From Spirobacillus cienkowskii (GTDB lineage Bacteria; Bdellovibrionota_B; Oligoflexia; Silvanigrellales; Silvanigrellaceae), in NCBI RefSeq assembly GCF_037081835.1, contig NZ_CP146516.1, positions 2,173,577 through 2,237,576 of the forward strand: 64,000 bases of DNA, written 5' to 3'. A model generated the notes under the pieces. That model saw nothing but the letters and a program-made list of their open reading frames with translations. It made no database searches and was not told the DNA's origin. The translations under genes and the position numbers were made by a program. How positions within the stretch are numbered: position 1 is the first letter of the stretch; the number at the start of each line of letters is the position of its first letter. Of the stretch, positions 33,373 through 49,093 are shown piece by piece.

Positions 33373-33542
33373 TTAACAATAATAACCATCAACTAGCTTC
33401 CTAAAGTCTCAATAGTAAATTAACCTTTATAAGGTATATGCACCATAGCAACTTAAATTTTAATCAGCAACTAATCCGTCATGCACAGTTTTTAATCACG
33501 CATAACGGAATAGCCCGTAAAGTATTAGGAAGTTATTGTTAA
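33373..33542. repeat. inverted-repeat-bounded structured element (MITE-like or ncRNA)
   Basis: The right arm TTAGGAAG-TTATTGTTAA (33525-33542) matches, inverted, a split left arm: TTAACAATAA (33373-33382) and CTTCCTAA (33397-33404). Inside, TCCGTCATGC (33475-33484) pairs with GCATAACGGA (33500-33509) with one mismatch. The whole 170-base unit can fold into a long hairpin with an internal stem-loop. There is no open frame. It could be a miniature inverted-repeat element, a recombination site for the neighbouring Xer-like protein, or a structured RNA. No target duplication was obvious. Confidence 0.5.
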
Positions 33543-33558
33543 GAATTTAGAAAAATTT

Positions 33559-34584
33559 TTATTTTACAGTTTTTACCTTCCGTGGATTTATTTTTTTACG
33601 CTCTTTGCAATTTAAAAATCTTTCTAAAGAATTTAAAGACGAATATCCAGCCAGACCTGCAACTTTTTCGTTATCCATACCTTTTGCCAACCAACGCAAT
33701 ATCGCATGATTTCTTAAACTTTCAGAATTATAAGGAATTCCTAATATTTCTGAACAGACTTCATAAATGACAAATTTAATTCCATGTCTATGTAAAAAGT
33801 TAGTGCGTGTTTTTCTACTAACATTTAAATAACCAAAAAATAACTTTGAGTCCAATGAAGTAGACAAAGACATTTGCTCTCTAGTTTCTTTAAGCATTGT
33901 AAGAGCTCGAGAAACTTCTAGGTTATAAGGAACAAGTCTTTCATTGTTGCCTGTTACTTTTAAACAACCTGCAATAGAATTTTCAGAAGTTGGAGTTTCA
34001 AGCTCAGGCCACACATCTCCCCAAGTTAAGTTAGATGCTTCTGAAGCCTTAAGTCCACATTCACCAAGTATCAAAACTAGCGTCCAATCGCGAATCGCTT
34101 TTTCATCCTTATTCACCGCCAACTGCTTCAATGTTCTACAAAGACTCACAAATTTTTCGTGTGAAACTGTTAATAATGCGGGAGCTGGTTGCTTAGGAGA
34201 TTTGACATCCAAAAATGGAGAGCTCGTTATTATTTTTTCTGCAACAAGAAAATGTATAAAAGTACGCACACTCATTTGCGCTCTTCTAACACTTGACTGG
34301 GAGTGGCGACCATTTTCCTTTAAAAATTGTAGCCAGTTATCTTGAGCCGGATAAGAATAATTATCCGGACTAATTTGTTTTTCTATCAAAAACTCACAAA
34401 ACAGTGAAAGGTCATTACGATACGCACTTATCGTATTAACAGATTTACCTGATTTTTTAAGTTGATTTAAAAACCTTATGAGTAAGGGCGAAAGTTTTGA
34501 AAAAGCAAACGACTCGGGATAATAGAAATCTTTATTTATAGTTTCAGTAACTAAAGACTGATGGTTGACAAAATTTCCTTCCAT
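33559..34584 (-). CDS. Xer-like tyrosine recombinase homologue, catalytic residues lost
   Basis: A 341-residue protein with an N-terminal SAM-like core-binding domain (about 30-125) and a C-terminal catalytic fold of the XerC/XerD type. Aligned by eye with XerD, the active-site Arg I is Lys179 (GECGLKASEASNL), the beta-hairpin Lys position is Asn213, His II is Glu288, Arg II is kept (Arg291), His/Trp III is Tyr314 and the nucleophilic Tyr is Phe323. It should not cut DNA. It may bind it. The start at ATG 34584 follows GAGGAG; a longer frame to 34626 lacks such a site. A working XerC/D pair would have to be encoded elsewhere. Confidence 0.8.
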   Translation of the reverse strand: MEGNFVNHQSLVTETINKDFYYPESFAFSKLSPLLIRFLNQLKKSGKSVNTISAYRNDLSLFCEFLIEKQISPDNYSYPAQDNWLQFLKENGRHSQSSVRRAQMSVRTFIHFLVAEKIITSSPFLDVKSPKQPAPALLTVSHEKFVSLCRTLKQLAVNKDEKAIRDWTLVLILGECGLKASEASNLTWGDVWPELETPTSENSIAGCLKVTGNNERLVPYNLEVSRALTMLKETREQMSLSTSLDSKLFFGYLNVSRKTRTNFLHRHGIKFVIYEVCSEILGIPYNSESLRNHAILRWLAKGMDNEKVAGLAGYSSLNSLERFLNCKERKKINPRKVKTVK

Positions 34585-35170
34585 GAAAATCTCCTCAAAA
34601 AAACCATTTTTGATGAATGAAAGCATTCATTTACAGAGCGCTTTAAATTCGTTGATATAAAGCTAAACCTATTCATTAAGACTCACAACATAGCTTACAT
34701 TAGAAAAAAAATCAAAACAATTTCAAGATATTAAAAAAATTAAAAAACAAAAAATTTTTTACTAACAAATAGTTACGTGAGATTAGAAATCTTCAAATAT
34801 TTTTAATAATTACAAACATTCGCTCTCAAATTCATTCAGTTTGTTAACATTACATAAGAACTCAAAAGAATTTTTGACTATTTAAATGTAATTATAAAAT
34901 TAAATAAATGTAATTTATCATTTTTATTACAATTTTAATATTTCAATTTTTATAATCTATTATTTGTACTTAATTAATAAAAATTTAAAAAGATGACTTT
35001 TATGAAAAATATAAAAATCAAATACATTTTTTGGATTAAACATTGCTCAGCTAATTTGGTTTGCTATACCTTCTTAAAAAGTTGACACGGCAAAACTCCA
35101 ATACTGTTATTGTCGTGTTCAACTTTCATAATATCTTTGTATTTTTATTTTATTTTTTTCGAGGCTTTAT
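34585..35170. other. AT-rich intergenic region
   Basis: Nearly 590 bases between the Xer-like gene and a divergent two-gene unit, very AT-rich with no plausible gene in the first 480 bases. The right end holds the promoter and inverted repeat listed separately. A promoter for the Xer-like gene must be near 34600-34700 but could not be chosen. Confidence 0.6.
35080..35124 (+). promoter_or_regulatory. promoter enclosed by an inverted repeat
   Basis: TTGACA (35082-35087) and TGTTAT (35105-35110) are spaced by 17 bases, a good sigma70 promoter for the downstream gene pair. The same region is bounded by an inverted repeat, AGTTGACACG (35080-35089) and CGTGTTCAACT (35114-35124), differing by one extra T. 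The left arm contains the -35 box and the right arm covers the expected start point. This is the layout of an operator. The second downstream gene resembles a CI-type regulator, so autoregulation is plausible. Confidence 0.6.
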
Positions 35171-35722
35171 ATGGAATTGCCATGCAGGGTTTACACTTCA
35201 CTTCAAAACAAGCATATTAGAGATGAGCTTCGTAAAGTTGTTAGAACTTTTAAGGCAGACAAGTTTTTTAACTATATCGATCCAAATATTATAAACACTG
35301 AAACACTTGAGTGTATTAATTTTGGAAGCGATTATAGTGGTTTAACAAGTCACTATGTTTTTCTTGACATTTATAGTATTGATCCATTTTTAAACCAATT
35401 TAAATACACTCGAAAACAAACATTTCACTTTAAAGAGCTCGAAATGAGTCAGATAAAAATGCAACGCAGCAATCTTAGAGTTGGGGTAGTGCTTAACGAA
35501 GAAAGGAGTAAAATTTTTCAAGTTCATAATGGCATGTATAGAACTATTCCTATCAACAAAAAATATTCTTTTGTTTGCGTATATGGATCAGATCAAAAAG
35601 ATTTTATTTTTGATACTAATTTTTCGTTAGGTTCTGATGATGGAAAATGGTTTTATAAATTTGAATTTGCACTTCTTGAGGTTGTTAAGAAATATTTAAT
35701 AAATATTGAGAGAAAGTGTTAG
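35171..35722 (+). CDS. hypothetical protein
   Basis: A 183-residue protein of mixed alpha/beta composition with no signal peptide or membrane helix. It was not recognised. It is rich in aromatic and charged residues with beta-like alternation in the second half (VGVVLNEERSKIFQVHNGMY). The ATG follows a GAGG site. The downstream gene begins one base after its stop, so the two form an operon and probably act together. Base composition is like the neighbouring non-ribosomal genes. Confidence 0.75.
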   Translation: MELPCRVYTSLQNKHIRDELRKVVRTFKADKFFNYIDPNIINTETLECINFGSDYSGLTSHYVFLDIYSIDPFLNQFKYTRKQTFHFKELEMSQIKMQRSNLRVGVVLNEERSKIFQVHNGMYRTIPINKKYSFVCVYGSDQKDFIFDTNFSLGSDDGKWFYKFEFALLEVVKKYLINIERKC

Positions 35723-35723
35723 C

Positions 35724-36374
35724 ATGATAGATATAAAAAAAATTTTAGCTCAGTCAGCAGGATTAAGAGCTTACTCAATTAGAGTAGGTGTTTTAAATAA
35801 AACTAAAAAGTATTTTTCATCGAAGTATAACATACATTCGAATGCTATAAAAAATTATGAAGAAAGTCCTGTCATAAAATCTAAAACAACTGCGCAAAAA
35901 ATTTTTGAATCTTTTTTATGCGAAGGTATCAATTTAACTGAATCTTGGTTTTACGAAGGAATTGGAGAATTACCAATTAACGAAGATATATGTTCAAAGA
36001 TTTTTTATGAATATGATGATCAAGAATCTAAATCTTGTTTAGATATTTTACTGTTTAAATCTAGATATAAAGACTCTGAAATTATTACTATTGAAGATAA
36101 CTTAAATAGTCCTTACTACAATTATGGAGATCATGTTGGTTTTATCTGGCGCAAACTATCGCAAATTGACTGTTTAAATAAAGTTGTTTGTGCAGTTGAA
36201 TTGAATGATATTATATCAATAAGAGTATGTTCTAAAATATCTAATAGTAAGGTTAGAATCGAGTGTAATAAGCTACAAAATAAAACTATTAATACAAGTT
36301 CAATTGCACCAATTATTTTTCATAGACCAGCTAAAAGCTATAGAATAATTAATATTAGACATTCAATTTTATAA
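35724..36374 (+). CDS. CI/S24-like repressor-type protein (degenerate)
   Basis: A 216-residue protein resembling phage-type repressors with an N-terminal helix-turn-helix and a LexA/S24-like C-domain. The segment AQKIFESFLCEGINLTESWF-YEGIGELP looks like the dimer-linker helix of this class. EDNLNSPYYNYGDHVGFIWR matches the DDSMxPxYxxGDxVGG pattern. The catalytic Ser of that pattern is Leu here, so self-cleavage is unlikely. No other phage genes are near. The ATG at 35724 is preferred over TTG 35706, which lies inside the previous gene. Assigned by eye and uncertain. Confidence 0.55.
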   Translation: MIDIKKILAQSAGLRAYSIRVGVLNKTKKYFSSKYNIHSNAIKNYEESPVIKSKTTAQKIFESFLCEGINLTESWFYEGIGELPINEDICSKIFYEYDDQESKSCLDILLFKSRYKDSEIITIEDNLNSPYYNYGDHVGFIWRKLSQIDCLNKVVCAVELNDIISIRVCSKISNSKVRIECNKLQNKTINTSSIAPIIFHRPAKSYRIINIRHSIL

Positions 36375-36389
36375 AAAAGATAACAATGA

Positions 36390-37685
36390 TTACTTTTTTA
36401 ATATTTCAATTAAAGTATCGTCACCCAGTCTTTCTTGCACCGCAAGAGAAAAACGGCTAGCTGTAGAAACTTGTCGTAATAAGCAACGATTTAAACTTCT
36501 TTTGGCAGTAGAAAAAATTCTATTTTTGCTACCTCCTAAAAAAAATGGGGCTATAAATATATGCGCAACGTCAAAAAGTTCATTATCAATAAAAGCACTT
36601 AGAAGCCTAGGTTCACCCTCAACCATAATACTTTGTACAGGTCTACCTAATACATCTGAGACGAGCTGAGAACTTAATGCATTAACAATACTTTCTCCTG
36701 GAGACATTTTATGATTATTATTTAAAGTTATAAAACAGTATTTTTTATCATTAAATAATTTTTTAATCCAAACCGATGGAGACTCTTTGGCAAATTTTAA
36801 AGCGCTATCATTAATTAAAATAATTGTAGAATTGCTAGAACTCAAAGTTTTTTCAATTAATTTATTTTGTTCATGCTGCTGCACATGAAATATTTTGCCC
36901 TCCGGATCATATATCACTTTTAAAGGATTTCGAGCCTGCTGGATATCGGGATGCCTAACATTAAGTGACGGAAAATCATTCAAAACAGTACCAATGCCAA
37001 CTAAAATGGCATCATATTTTTGTCTTAGCCAATGTGCGTAATGCCTCGATTTTATATTTGAAATCCACTGCCAACCATTATTGTCATCAGCCAAACAACC
37101 ATCAAGACTTTGTGCCCATTTTAAAGCAATAAAAATTCGCTTTTGCTGTAACTGGACAAAAAATGGATAATTCCAAGCTTTTATCTCATTTGCGAGGACA
37201 GGATTGTAAGTTCCCAAGCCCCAGCTTTTAAGAATTTCCAGACCTCTTTGTTTCATAACTGGATTGGGGTCTAAGCATCCCACAACAACTTTTTGGATTC
37301 CTTTGTCTTTAAACAGATCGATACATGGTGGTTGACGACCAAAATGAGTACATGGCTCAAGAGTGACATACACCTGAGTCCCCAATAACAAATCAGTGTT
37401 TTGAAAGAGATCAACCGCCACCCGTTCTGCGTGACGACCTCCCCAGATCTCAGTACAACCACTTGATATTACTTTATTATTTTTAACAATTACACACCCT
37501 ACCGATGGATTTGGATTTGCAATAGAAGTATTTTTCATGCTTTCTAAAAATGCATTGAATAAAAACTCCTCTTCGCTTTTTGCCAAGGAATGATTAATAA
37601 ATTCGTGGTTATCTAGTTCTTGGTCAGGCACAATTGCTGGCAGCCAACCACCAAAAGTAAAGCCTTTTTTTAAAGTAAAAGACAT
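36390..37685 (-). CDS. ribD: bifunctional riboflavin biosynthesis deaminase/reductase
   Basis: Two-domain enzyme of 431 residues carrying out the second and third steps of riboflavin synthesis. The N-terminal cytidine-deaminase-like domain has the zinc site HAE (His85, Glu87) and PC-x8-C (Cys112, Cys121). The C-terminal NADPH reductase domain has VKDPxG-like (KVIYDPEGK) and VEGEPRLLSAF. It has about 38 extra N-terminal residues compared with E. coli RibD. It stands alone: no ribE, ribA or ribH and no FMN riboswitch were seen nearby. Confidence 0.93.
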   Translation of the reverse strand: MSFTLKKGFTFGGWLPAIVPDQELDNHEFINHSLAKSEEEFLFNAFLESMKNTSIANPNPSVGCVIVKNNKVISSGCTEIWGGRHAERVAVDLFQNTDLLLGTQVYVTLEPCTHFGRQPPCIDLFKDKGIQKVVVGCLDPNPVMKQRGLEILKSWGLGTYNPVLANEIKAWNYPFFVQLQQKRIFIALKWAQSLDGCLADDNNGWQWISNIKSRHYAHWLRQKYDAILVGIGTVLNDFPSLNVRHPDIQQARNPLKVIYDPEGKIFHVQQHEQNKLIEKTLSSSNSTIILINDSALKFAKESPSVWIKKLFNDKKYCFITLNNNHKMSPGESIVNALSSQLVSDVLGRPVQSIMVEGEPRLLSAFIDNELFDVAHIFIAPFFLGGSKNRIFSTAKRSLNRCLLRQVSTASRFSLAVQERLGDDTLIEILKK

Positions 37686-47703: not shown

Positions 47704-47712
47704 ACTAATAAT
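47704..47712 (+). repeat. left target-site duplication of the IS982-like element
   Basis: ACTAATAAT immediately before the left terminal repeat matches ATTAATAAT at 48731-48739 in eight of nine bases. It is interpreted as a 9-base target duplication with one later change. Confidence 0.65.
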
Positions 47713-48730
47713 GCCAGTTAATAGTTGAGAAAGTTATTGTGAGGCTTGAAGAAATAGCTCCAATTTGTTAAATAATTTTTGCACAAACAAAATTAACAAA
47801 GGAGCTACCAATGGACTGGCAGAGCCAACTCATCACTGTATACCTTACTACCTGCGATTTCTTTTCTCAACTCTCTCCAACCTCTTTTTTAAAAATTAGT
47901 CCAAACTCAAATCCCTCGTTCACAGACCAAGAAGTCACCACTATTTACATCTTTGGAGTTTTAATGAAACAAAAAAATATAAAAGCTATTTTTAACTTCA
48001 CTAAAAATTTTATTCCAAACTGGTTTCCTCACTTGCCTTCTTATGAAGGATTTTTGTCAAGACTTAATAGCTTAAGTAAACTCTTTCCTGAACTTGCAAA
48101 CTTTATTTTAAAAAATAATAAATTTAAAATCCCTAAAACAAAATCCAAACCTTTTATTCTTATTGACTCTTTACCTATTATACTCACAACTGGTTTTCGG
48201 GCGCACAAGTGCAATACTGCAAACGATATTTCTGCTATTGGCTATTGCTCTTCAAAAGATAAATTTTACTATGGGTTAAAACTTCATCTCGCTGCTTTGT
48301 TTCAAAATAAAAAACTTGCCGCACCTATTGATTTTAAAATCACACCCGCCGCAACTCACGACTTAACTGCTGTTAAGAATGATCTTTTAAACTTCAAACA
48401 TTCGCAAATCTTTGCCGATCGTGCTTACTGTGACAAATCAACTAAAAAAAACTTGAATCAAATAAACTCTAAATTACACACACCAATTAAACTCTCTCGG
48501 AATAAAAAAACTCTTTCTAGTGATGAGAAAGTTTATTCTAAATCTGTTAGCTCTATTCGGCAGTCCATTGAAATCCTTTTTAACTGGTTAATTGAATCCA
48601 GCGGTATTCAAATCGCATCAAAAGTTCGATCGACTAAAGGCCTTATCGTCCATGTTTTCGGACGATTTTCTGCCTGCCTGTTTAACTACTTATTCAAATT
48701 CTAATTGATTTTTCTCAACTATTAATTGGC
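47713..48730 (+). mobile_element. IS982-like insertion sequence, intact
   Basis: A 1018-base element with 20-base terminal inverted repeats matching at 19 positions: GCCAGTTAATAGTTGAGAAA at 47713-47732 and the inverse of it, with one change, at 48711-48730. Flanking 9-base near-identical repeats and exact restoration of the interrupted gene support these boundaries. It carries one full-length transposase and no passenger gene. The intact frame and near-perfect ends suggest a fairly recent insertion. Confidence 0.85.
47811..48704 (+). CDS. IS982-like DDE transposase
   Basis: A 297-residue transposase. The catalytic triad candidates are Asp in FILIDSLPI, Asp in IFADRAYCDK and Glu in RQSIEILFNWL. 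The segment YYGLKLHLAA plus DFKITPAATHD between them is typical of the IS4/IS5/IS982 superfamily, with best resemblance to IS982. GGAG lies upstream of the ATG. It is uninterrupted, so it may be active. Confidence 0.85.
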   Translation: MDWQSQLITVYLTTCDFFSQLSPTSFLKISPNSNPSFTDQEVTTIYIFGVLMKQKNIKAIFNFTKNFIPNWFPHLPSYEGFLSRLNSLSKLFPELANFILKNNKFKIPKTKSKPFILIDSLPIILTTGFRAHKCNTANDISAIGYCSSKDKFYYGLKLHLAALFQNKKLAAPIDFKITPAATHDLTAVKNDLLNFKHSQIFADRAYCDKSTKKNLNQINSKLHTPIKLSRNKKTLSSDEKVYSKSVSSIRQSIEILFNWLIESSGIQIASKVRSTKGLIVHVFGRFSACLFNYLFKF

Positions 48731-48739
48731 ATTAATAAT
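48731..48739 (+). repeat. right target-site duplication of the IS982-like element
   Basis: ATTAATAAT directly after the right terminal repeat; pairs with ACTAATAAT at the left end (eight of nine identical). Confidence 0.65.
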
Positions 48740-49093
48740 ATTAACCTACTTATTAGCTCTTTAGGTAACAGAGGATACATTGGTTACAAACTTACCCCTA
48801 GCAAAAGATTTTCTATTTATGCCTTGGGTGATATCAGTTATTTTGCCTATAATCATGGGATAATATTAGTTGACAATAGCTTAATATCTGAAGAAATTTC
48901 CATTGAAAGCCATTATAATTACGGCGCCACATTGATGAATACTTTCAATATAACAGATAGTTTTGCAATTAGTCTGATTTTAGGGATACATAACAATTCT
49001 ATGAGTCTTGATAATAGCAAAACCATTAAAATCAATGAAAAATTAAATTACACTGATGTTAAAGCTTCATTAGGTTTATTATATACAATTTGA

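Follow-up and report, generated by a model that had tools for sequence, protein, structure and literature searches.

An intact gene for an Xer-like protein

The window analysed here, a 64,000-nt stretch of the Spirobacillus cienkowskii genome, carries on its minus strand a gene for a 341-aa Xer-like protein, which we call dead Xer after the state of its active site (Table 1). The initial annotation had described an intact frame with a good ribosome binding site, and both are borne out: the frame check showed 28 stops on the plus strand of 33559-34584, and GGAG of the Shine-Dalgarno sequence is identical in all six aligned genus members. An in-frame ATG further 5′, at 34626, would give 355 aa. 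We rejected this longer frame in favor of the start at 34584, because the block between the two ATGs varies mostly at amino-acid-altering positions and because GAGGAG fits the latter start. No conserved palindrome stood out when the upstream region was compared within the genus. The genus member coded G004 has a frame break: its first ~37 residues are read in a different frame, and this copy is therefore damaged or misassembled.

Table 1. Coordinates (window positions) of the dead Xer gene, its domains and key residues, and of other features in the window
Feature	Position	Strand	Basis or remark
Dead Xer-like gene, Spirobacillus cienkowskii	33559..34584	minus	341 aa; ATG 34584, stop codon 33559-33561
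Shine-Dalgarno GAGGAG	34591..34596	minus	sequence; 5′ of start codon
N-terminal core-binding (SAM-like) domain, residues 36-117, with S98, R100, R101	34234..34479	minus	Pfam PF02899, 5.3e-11; invariant or nearly invariant columns
Former catalytic domain, ~residues 142-325	33610..34161	minus	PF00589, 2.5e-7; AlphaFold model and Foldseek
Lys179 at catalytic Arg I position	34048..34050	minus	Lys in 30/30 aligned family members
Thr211 at catalytic Lys position	33952..33954	minus	not conserved in family
R266-H-G-I-K270, family signature RHGxK	33775..33789	minus	R, H, K invariant in family
Glu288 at His II position	33721..33723	minus	Glu in 27/29 members
Arg291, retained Arg II	33712..33714	minus	invariant in family
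Tyr314 at His III position	33643..33645	minus	Tyr in Silvanigrellales, Leu elsewhere
Phe323 at nucleophile Tyr position	33616..33618	minus	Phe in Silvanigrellales; His in 13/17 other members
ribD, co-oriented upstream neighbor in Silvanigrellales	36390..37685	minus	context; functional link to dead Xer not implied
Insertion sequence, ~1 kb	47705-48740		inverted ends AATGCCA(A/G)TTAATAGTTGAGAAA
DDE transposase of insertion sequence	47811-48704		297 aa

The proposal that the Xer-like fold is kept was confirmed at the level of domains and of the predicted structure. Phage_int_SAM_1 (5e-11) and Phage_integrase (2.5e-7) both pass the Pfam cut-offs, and an AlphaFold model computed from the alignment of the family (mean pLDDT 84) matched the solved structures of XerA, integron integrase, Cre, XerH and XerD in a Foldseek search of the PDB. 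The TM-scores were modest overall (~0.35-0.66), which we ascribe to a difference in the mutual orientation of the two domains. By its two domains and its matches to solved structures, dead Xer belongs to the tyrosine recombinase fold; by score, catalytic set and clade, it falls outside the XerD and XerC equivalogs. The best NCBIfam model was XerD (TIGR02225) with 89.8 bits versus a cut-off of 329.6; for XerC (TIGR02224) the score was 75.8 bits versus 335.15. Dead Xer and E. coli XerD are 28% identical across 283 aligned columns. An Xer-profile match was also seen over residues 5-280 of chain 14 in PDB entry 9i5v. This chain of 401 residues bears the name RaiA (ribosome-associated inhibitor) and is either a naturally occurring fusion of Xer with RaiA or the product of an odd chain definition.

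Replacement of the catalytic residues in Spirobacillus and across the family

In the alignment with E. coli XerD, R148/K172/H244/R247/H270/Y279 correspond to K179/T211/E288/R291/Y314/F323 of dead Xer, that is, the catalytic set reads K-T-E-R-Y-F versus R-K-H-R-H-Y and five of the six residues are replaced. This agrees with the earlier assignment of Lys to Arg I, Glu to His II, Tyr to His/Trp III and Phe to the nucleophile Tyr, with Arg II as the sole survivor, and the alignment restores neither an active-site Tyr nor Arg I. One assignment has to be corrected: the catalytic Lys had been read as Asn, but the aligned residue is Thr211, in a register made slightly uncertain by a nearby gap, and the Asn residues come after it in TGNNER.

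The catalytic positions are altered across the family as well. The Arg I position is Lys in 30/30 aligned members, every one of the 29 members whose alignment reaches that far retains Arg II, and the His II position is Glu in 27/29. His III has given way to Tyr in the 12 proteins from Silvanigrellales and to Leu in the remaining 17. At the nucleophile position, the 12 Silvanigrellales proteins have Phe, and the others have His (13) or Val, Asn, Leu and Tyr (one each); the catalytic Tyr is present in 1/29 members. In contrast, the R-K-H-R-H/W-Y set is complete in 63 of the 69 other tyrosine recombinases of this phylum that we aligned. The uniformity of Lys (30/30) and Arg II (29/29) against this background indicates that the residue losses are not due to chance.

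We scored column retention on positions invariant in 12 reference Xer proteins. Every member keeps T25, Y29, R134, G146, E151, R177, L246, R247 and G269 (XerD numbering); R148, K172, H244, H270 and Y279, by contrast, persist in only 0-9% of the family. Other non-catalytic invariant columns are lost too, mainly in the C-terminal part, and mean retention is 42% (31 columns). The family has acquired invariant residues of its own, including Lys179, H267 and K270 (RHGxK). The Spirobacillus protein and most members are basic; two are acidic, with pI values of 5.7 and 6.4.

Dead Xer is widespread in the phylum and under purifying selection

A profile of 27 orthologues (E <= 1e-12) matched dead Xer in 53 of the 58 genomes examined from the phylum, spread over 13 coded families, a few of the matches being partial or split between contigs (G010, G020, G051). 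Completeness is 72-90% in the five genomes that gave no match, and the gene is present in three sister species of G038, the best genome among the five. A contig scan with one protein as query brought up close relatives only, the closest named one being a Spirobacillus cienkowskii record whose protein is identical. The dead type is single-copy, since the extra weaker matches in Silvanigrellaceae are active recombinases. Identity to the Spirobacillus protein ranges from 91% in the genus down to ~22-28% across families.

The orthologues show no random decay or stops, an outcome that would have spoken against the initial annotation. The dN/dS ratio, calculated as it had suggested, was ~0.01-0.08 within the family where computable; dS is saturated, so these values are good for the order of magnitude only. 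In a 60-sequence tree, the dead Xer proteins formed one clade (support 100/99) outside the XerC and XerD clades. The exact place of the dead Xer clade is unsure because the references comprised only 10 XerC/XerD and two other Xer proteins. A viral or plasmid origin was rejected, as collections of viral contigs, phages and plasmids contained no dead-type relative. A defense role was likewise set aside, PADLOC giving no match.

The genes around dead Xer differ between lineages. In Silvanigrellales, ribD lies upstream (Table 1). In Spirobacillus, two overlapping genes with no Pfam match (35171-35722 and 35706-36374) were genus-only among the compared neighborhoods. The other Silvanigrellales (L100-L104, L131) carry a serine/threonine protein kinase gene 3′ of dead Xer, often with a 4-nt overlap. 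Outside Silvanigrellales, dead Xer is mostly transcribed divergently from an NtrY/NtrX block, and most families have a short deaminase gene directly 3′, often overlapping by a few bases, which reads as tadA by its motifs. These conserved neighborhoods argue for vertical inheritance.

An inverted-repeat element next to the gene (33373-33542) had been suggested as something that dead Xer might serve, a suggestion that did not survive comparison. Its perfect arms are only 10 nt long and 150 nt apart, it occurs once in the genome, and it was not found in sister genomes that keep dead Xer. We rejected it as a partner site, and the repeat is probably unrelated to the gene.

XerCD, dif, FtsK and SMC in the phylum

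In a search for a true xerD, also called for by the initial annotation, no genome of the phylum had a protein over the NCBIfam XerD cut-off of 329.6, the best score being 177 bits. In 21 genomes dead Xer is the sole XerD-model match (E <= 1e-15), and some of these have phage-type integrases. The classic dif pattern with <=1 mismatch had 17 matches in the home genome versus 18 in the control, a search that a divergent site would escape. As there is neither an XerD over the cut-off nor a dif-like excess in the home genome, no XerCD pair is left to assist, and the suggested role as an accessory factor for XerCD is not supported. For Bdellovibrio bacteriovorus, a dif site has been reported (PMC2731167).

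Silvanigrellaceae possess a clade of active Xer-like recombinases that in the tree comprises this family only, usually two per genome. In Spirobacillus these are L001 (G000:C1:740884-741438) and L003 (1303177-1303731), each with all six catalytic residues. This clade is possibly the dimer-resolution system of Silvanigrellaceae.

The GC skew of G000:C1 flips near 1.36 Mb (loci L222-L241), which places the terminus about there; dead Xer, at 2.207 Mb, is not near the flip. About 60 kb or less separates the flip from L003 (1.303 Mb) and from L002 (1.383 Mb), a short XerA-like gene. When 400 kb around the home terminus were compared with a second genome, only insertion-sequence ends were shared; the second terminus was not located, its skew flip not being reached in 800 kb, and the comparison is thus not valid as a dif search. 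A 28-nt candidate terminus site was discarded as the inverted end of a ~1-kb insertion sequence. The insertion sequence in the window (Table 1) has a second copy at ~1.556 Mb, single ends at ~1.373 and ~1.600 Mb, and related ends in G003.

ScpA is near-universal (56/58 genomes), and FtsK gamma was found in 44/56. In families f5 (except G037) and f8, FtsK gamma was undetected while ScpA and dead Xer are present (e.g. G016, G018, G026, G031). In Enterococcus gallinarum (NZ_CP116511.1, L215), xerD is located directly upstream of scpA.

Discussion

We estimate a probability of roughly 0.85 that dead Xer is kept as a non-cutting DNA-binding protein. Selection for such a protein, as originally proposed, is supported by orthologues in 53/58 genomes, by purifying selection, and by the retained fold and N-domain signature. 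The two acidic members and the G004 copy that is out of frame at its start speak against it. Like XerD and XerC, dead Xer has the two-domain fold, Arg II and several structural residues; unlike them, it lacks five of the six catalytic residues, forms a separate clade and scores far under the cut-offs, in a phylum where no XerD passes its cut-off and a home genome where dif-like sites do not exceed chance. XerH, XerS and other single-recombinase Xer proteins are also Xer-derived proteins in lineages devoid of XerCD, but they are active enzymes with dif, whereas dead Xer is inactive by sequence. In the integrase of Tn1549, R225 and Y379 are Arg I and the nucleophile. Constructs of this integrase solved on DNA carry R225K or Y379F according to their PDB titles, the same kinds of exchange as in dead Xer.

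A more specific role can be proposed by analogy with B. subtilis XerD, whose unloading of SMC reportedly does not need recombination. That this XerD unloads SMC at the terminus is stated in passages of PMC12322038, PMC8357415 and PMC10945525, the first two citing Karaboja et al., 2021 for XerD as the SMC unloader, and dif has been proposed as a general SMC unloading site (PMC13342612). The family is best explained as an ancient, vertically inherited derivative of Xer in which strand cleavage was lost before the phylum diversified. Its members would recognize specific DNA sites by means of the retained N-domain together with a phosphate grip formed by Arg291 and Lys179; by analogy with XerD, they would mark these sites, most likely in the replication terminus. 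SMC-ScpAB might then be removed at the marked sites, and chromosome dimers would not be resolved.

Dead Xer resembles B. subtilis XerD in having the Xer fold in cells with SMC-ScpAB, and a dead enzyme would be well suited to a role that relies on DNA binding. However, B. subtilis XerD belongs to a recombinase family with dif, while binding and unloading by dead Xer are hypothetical. The near-universal ScpA allows an SMC role and does not single it out, so that nothing ties dead Xer to SMC specifically. Furthermore, the tadA and ribD neighbors give no hint of segregation, the gene is far from the terminus, and the scan of 400 kb around the home terminus yielded no shared site apart from insertion-sequence ends. 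The full proposal, in which an Xer inactivated long ago has been retained to bind DNA without cutting it, for terminus marking and SMC unloading, is the one we favor, though tentatively, as possible rather than probable.

Dead Xer may instead be a transcription regulator that binds operator-like sites. MrpR of prophage SPbeta is a direct precedent: it has the tyrosine recombinase fold, has lost most catalytic residues, does not recombine and acts as a DNA-binding repressor (PMC10516654), and dead Xer has lost the same kind of residues. Yet the patterns differ: in MrpR, Lys and Tyr are still there and Arg I is replaced by Val/Ser. MrpR is prophage-encoded, whereas dead Xer is a chromosomal core gene found phylum-wide in conserved neighborhoods, with no dead-type member in the viral, phage and plasmid collections, and its upstream region in the genus has no conspicuous conserved palindrome. 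An MrpR-like function appears rather unlikely.

The active pair of Silvanigrellaceae (L001 and L003 types), with complete catalytic residues, raises the idea that dead Xer is the non-cutting half of a two-protein system in which an active tyrosine recombinase does all the cutting. This is quite unlikely, given that the clade of the active pair is confined to Silvanigrellaceae whereas dead Xer is phylum-wide, that dead Xer has no companion among the XerD-model matches of 21 genomes, and that the invariant positions of XerD 260-281 are mostly lost in it. The presence of FtsK gamma in most genomes despite the absence of an XerD over the cut-off could mean that FtsK gamma contacts dead Xer as it does XerD, for instance so that the translocase is halted or steered once it reaches the terminus. 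Families f5 and f8, which keep dead Xer while FtsK gamma is undetected (G037 excepted), speak against any FtsK gamma-dependent role, and we regard it as highly unlikely.

Cleavage through an unconventional active site, built on RHGxK or on His in place of Tyr in sister families, is extremely improbable. H267 and K270 are new invariants and His occupies the nucleophile position in 13/29 members, but that position varies among Phe, His, Val, Asn, Leu and Tyr, the Arg I, Lys, His II and His III residues are gone as well, and the former catalytic domain contains no other invariant Tyr or Ser. The chance that dead Xer is a decaying pseudogene, as the lost catalytic residues and the frame break in G004 might suggest, is negligible in view of open copies throughout the phylum (53/58 genomes) that form one clade with Lys in 30/30 members and other shared invariant residues, conserved neighborhoods and dN/dS well below 0.1.

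Xer proteins have been studied as recombinases. In the dead Xer family the chemistry has apparently been dropped while the gene stayed in the core genome, so that cutting would be naturally separated from the DNA binding that we infer, and a recombination-independent role of Xer would become directly testable. The finding raises the question of how chromosome dimers are resolved in a phylum with no recognizable XerCD or dif. That the phylum lost XerCD/dif recombination and keeps a non-cutting Xer for terminus marking and SMC unloading is unlikely on present evidence; if true, the architectural role of XerD would have outlived dimer resolution and would stand alone.
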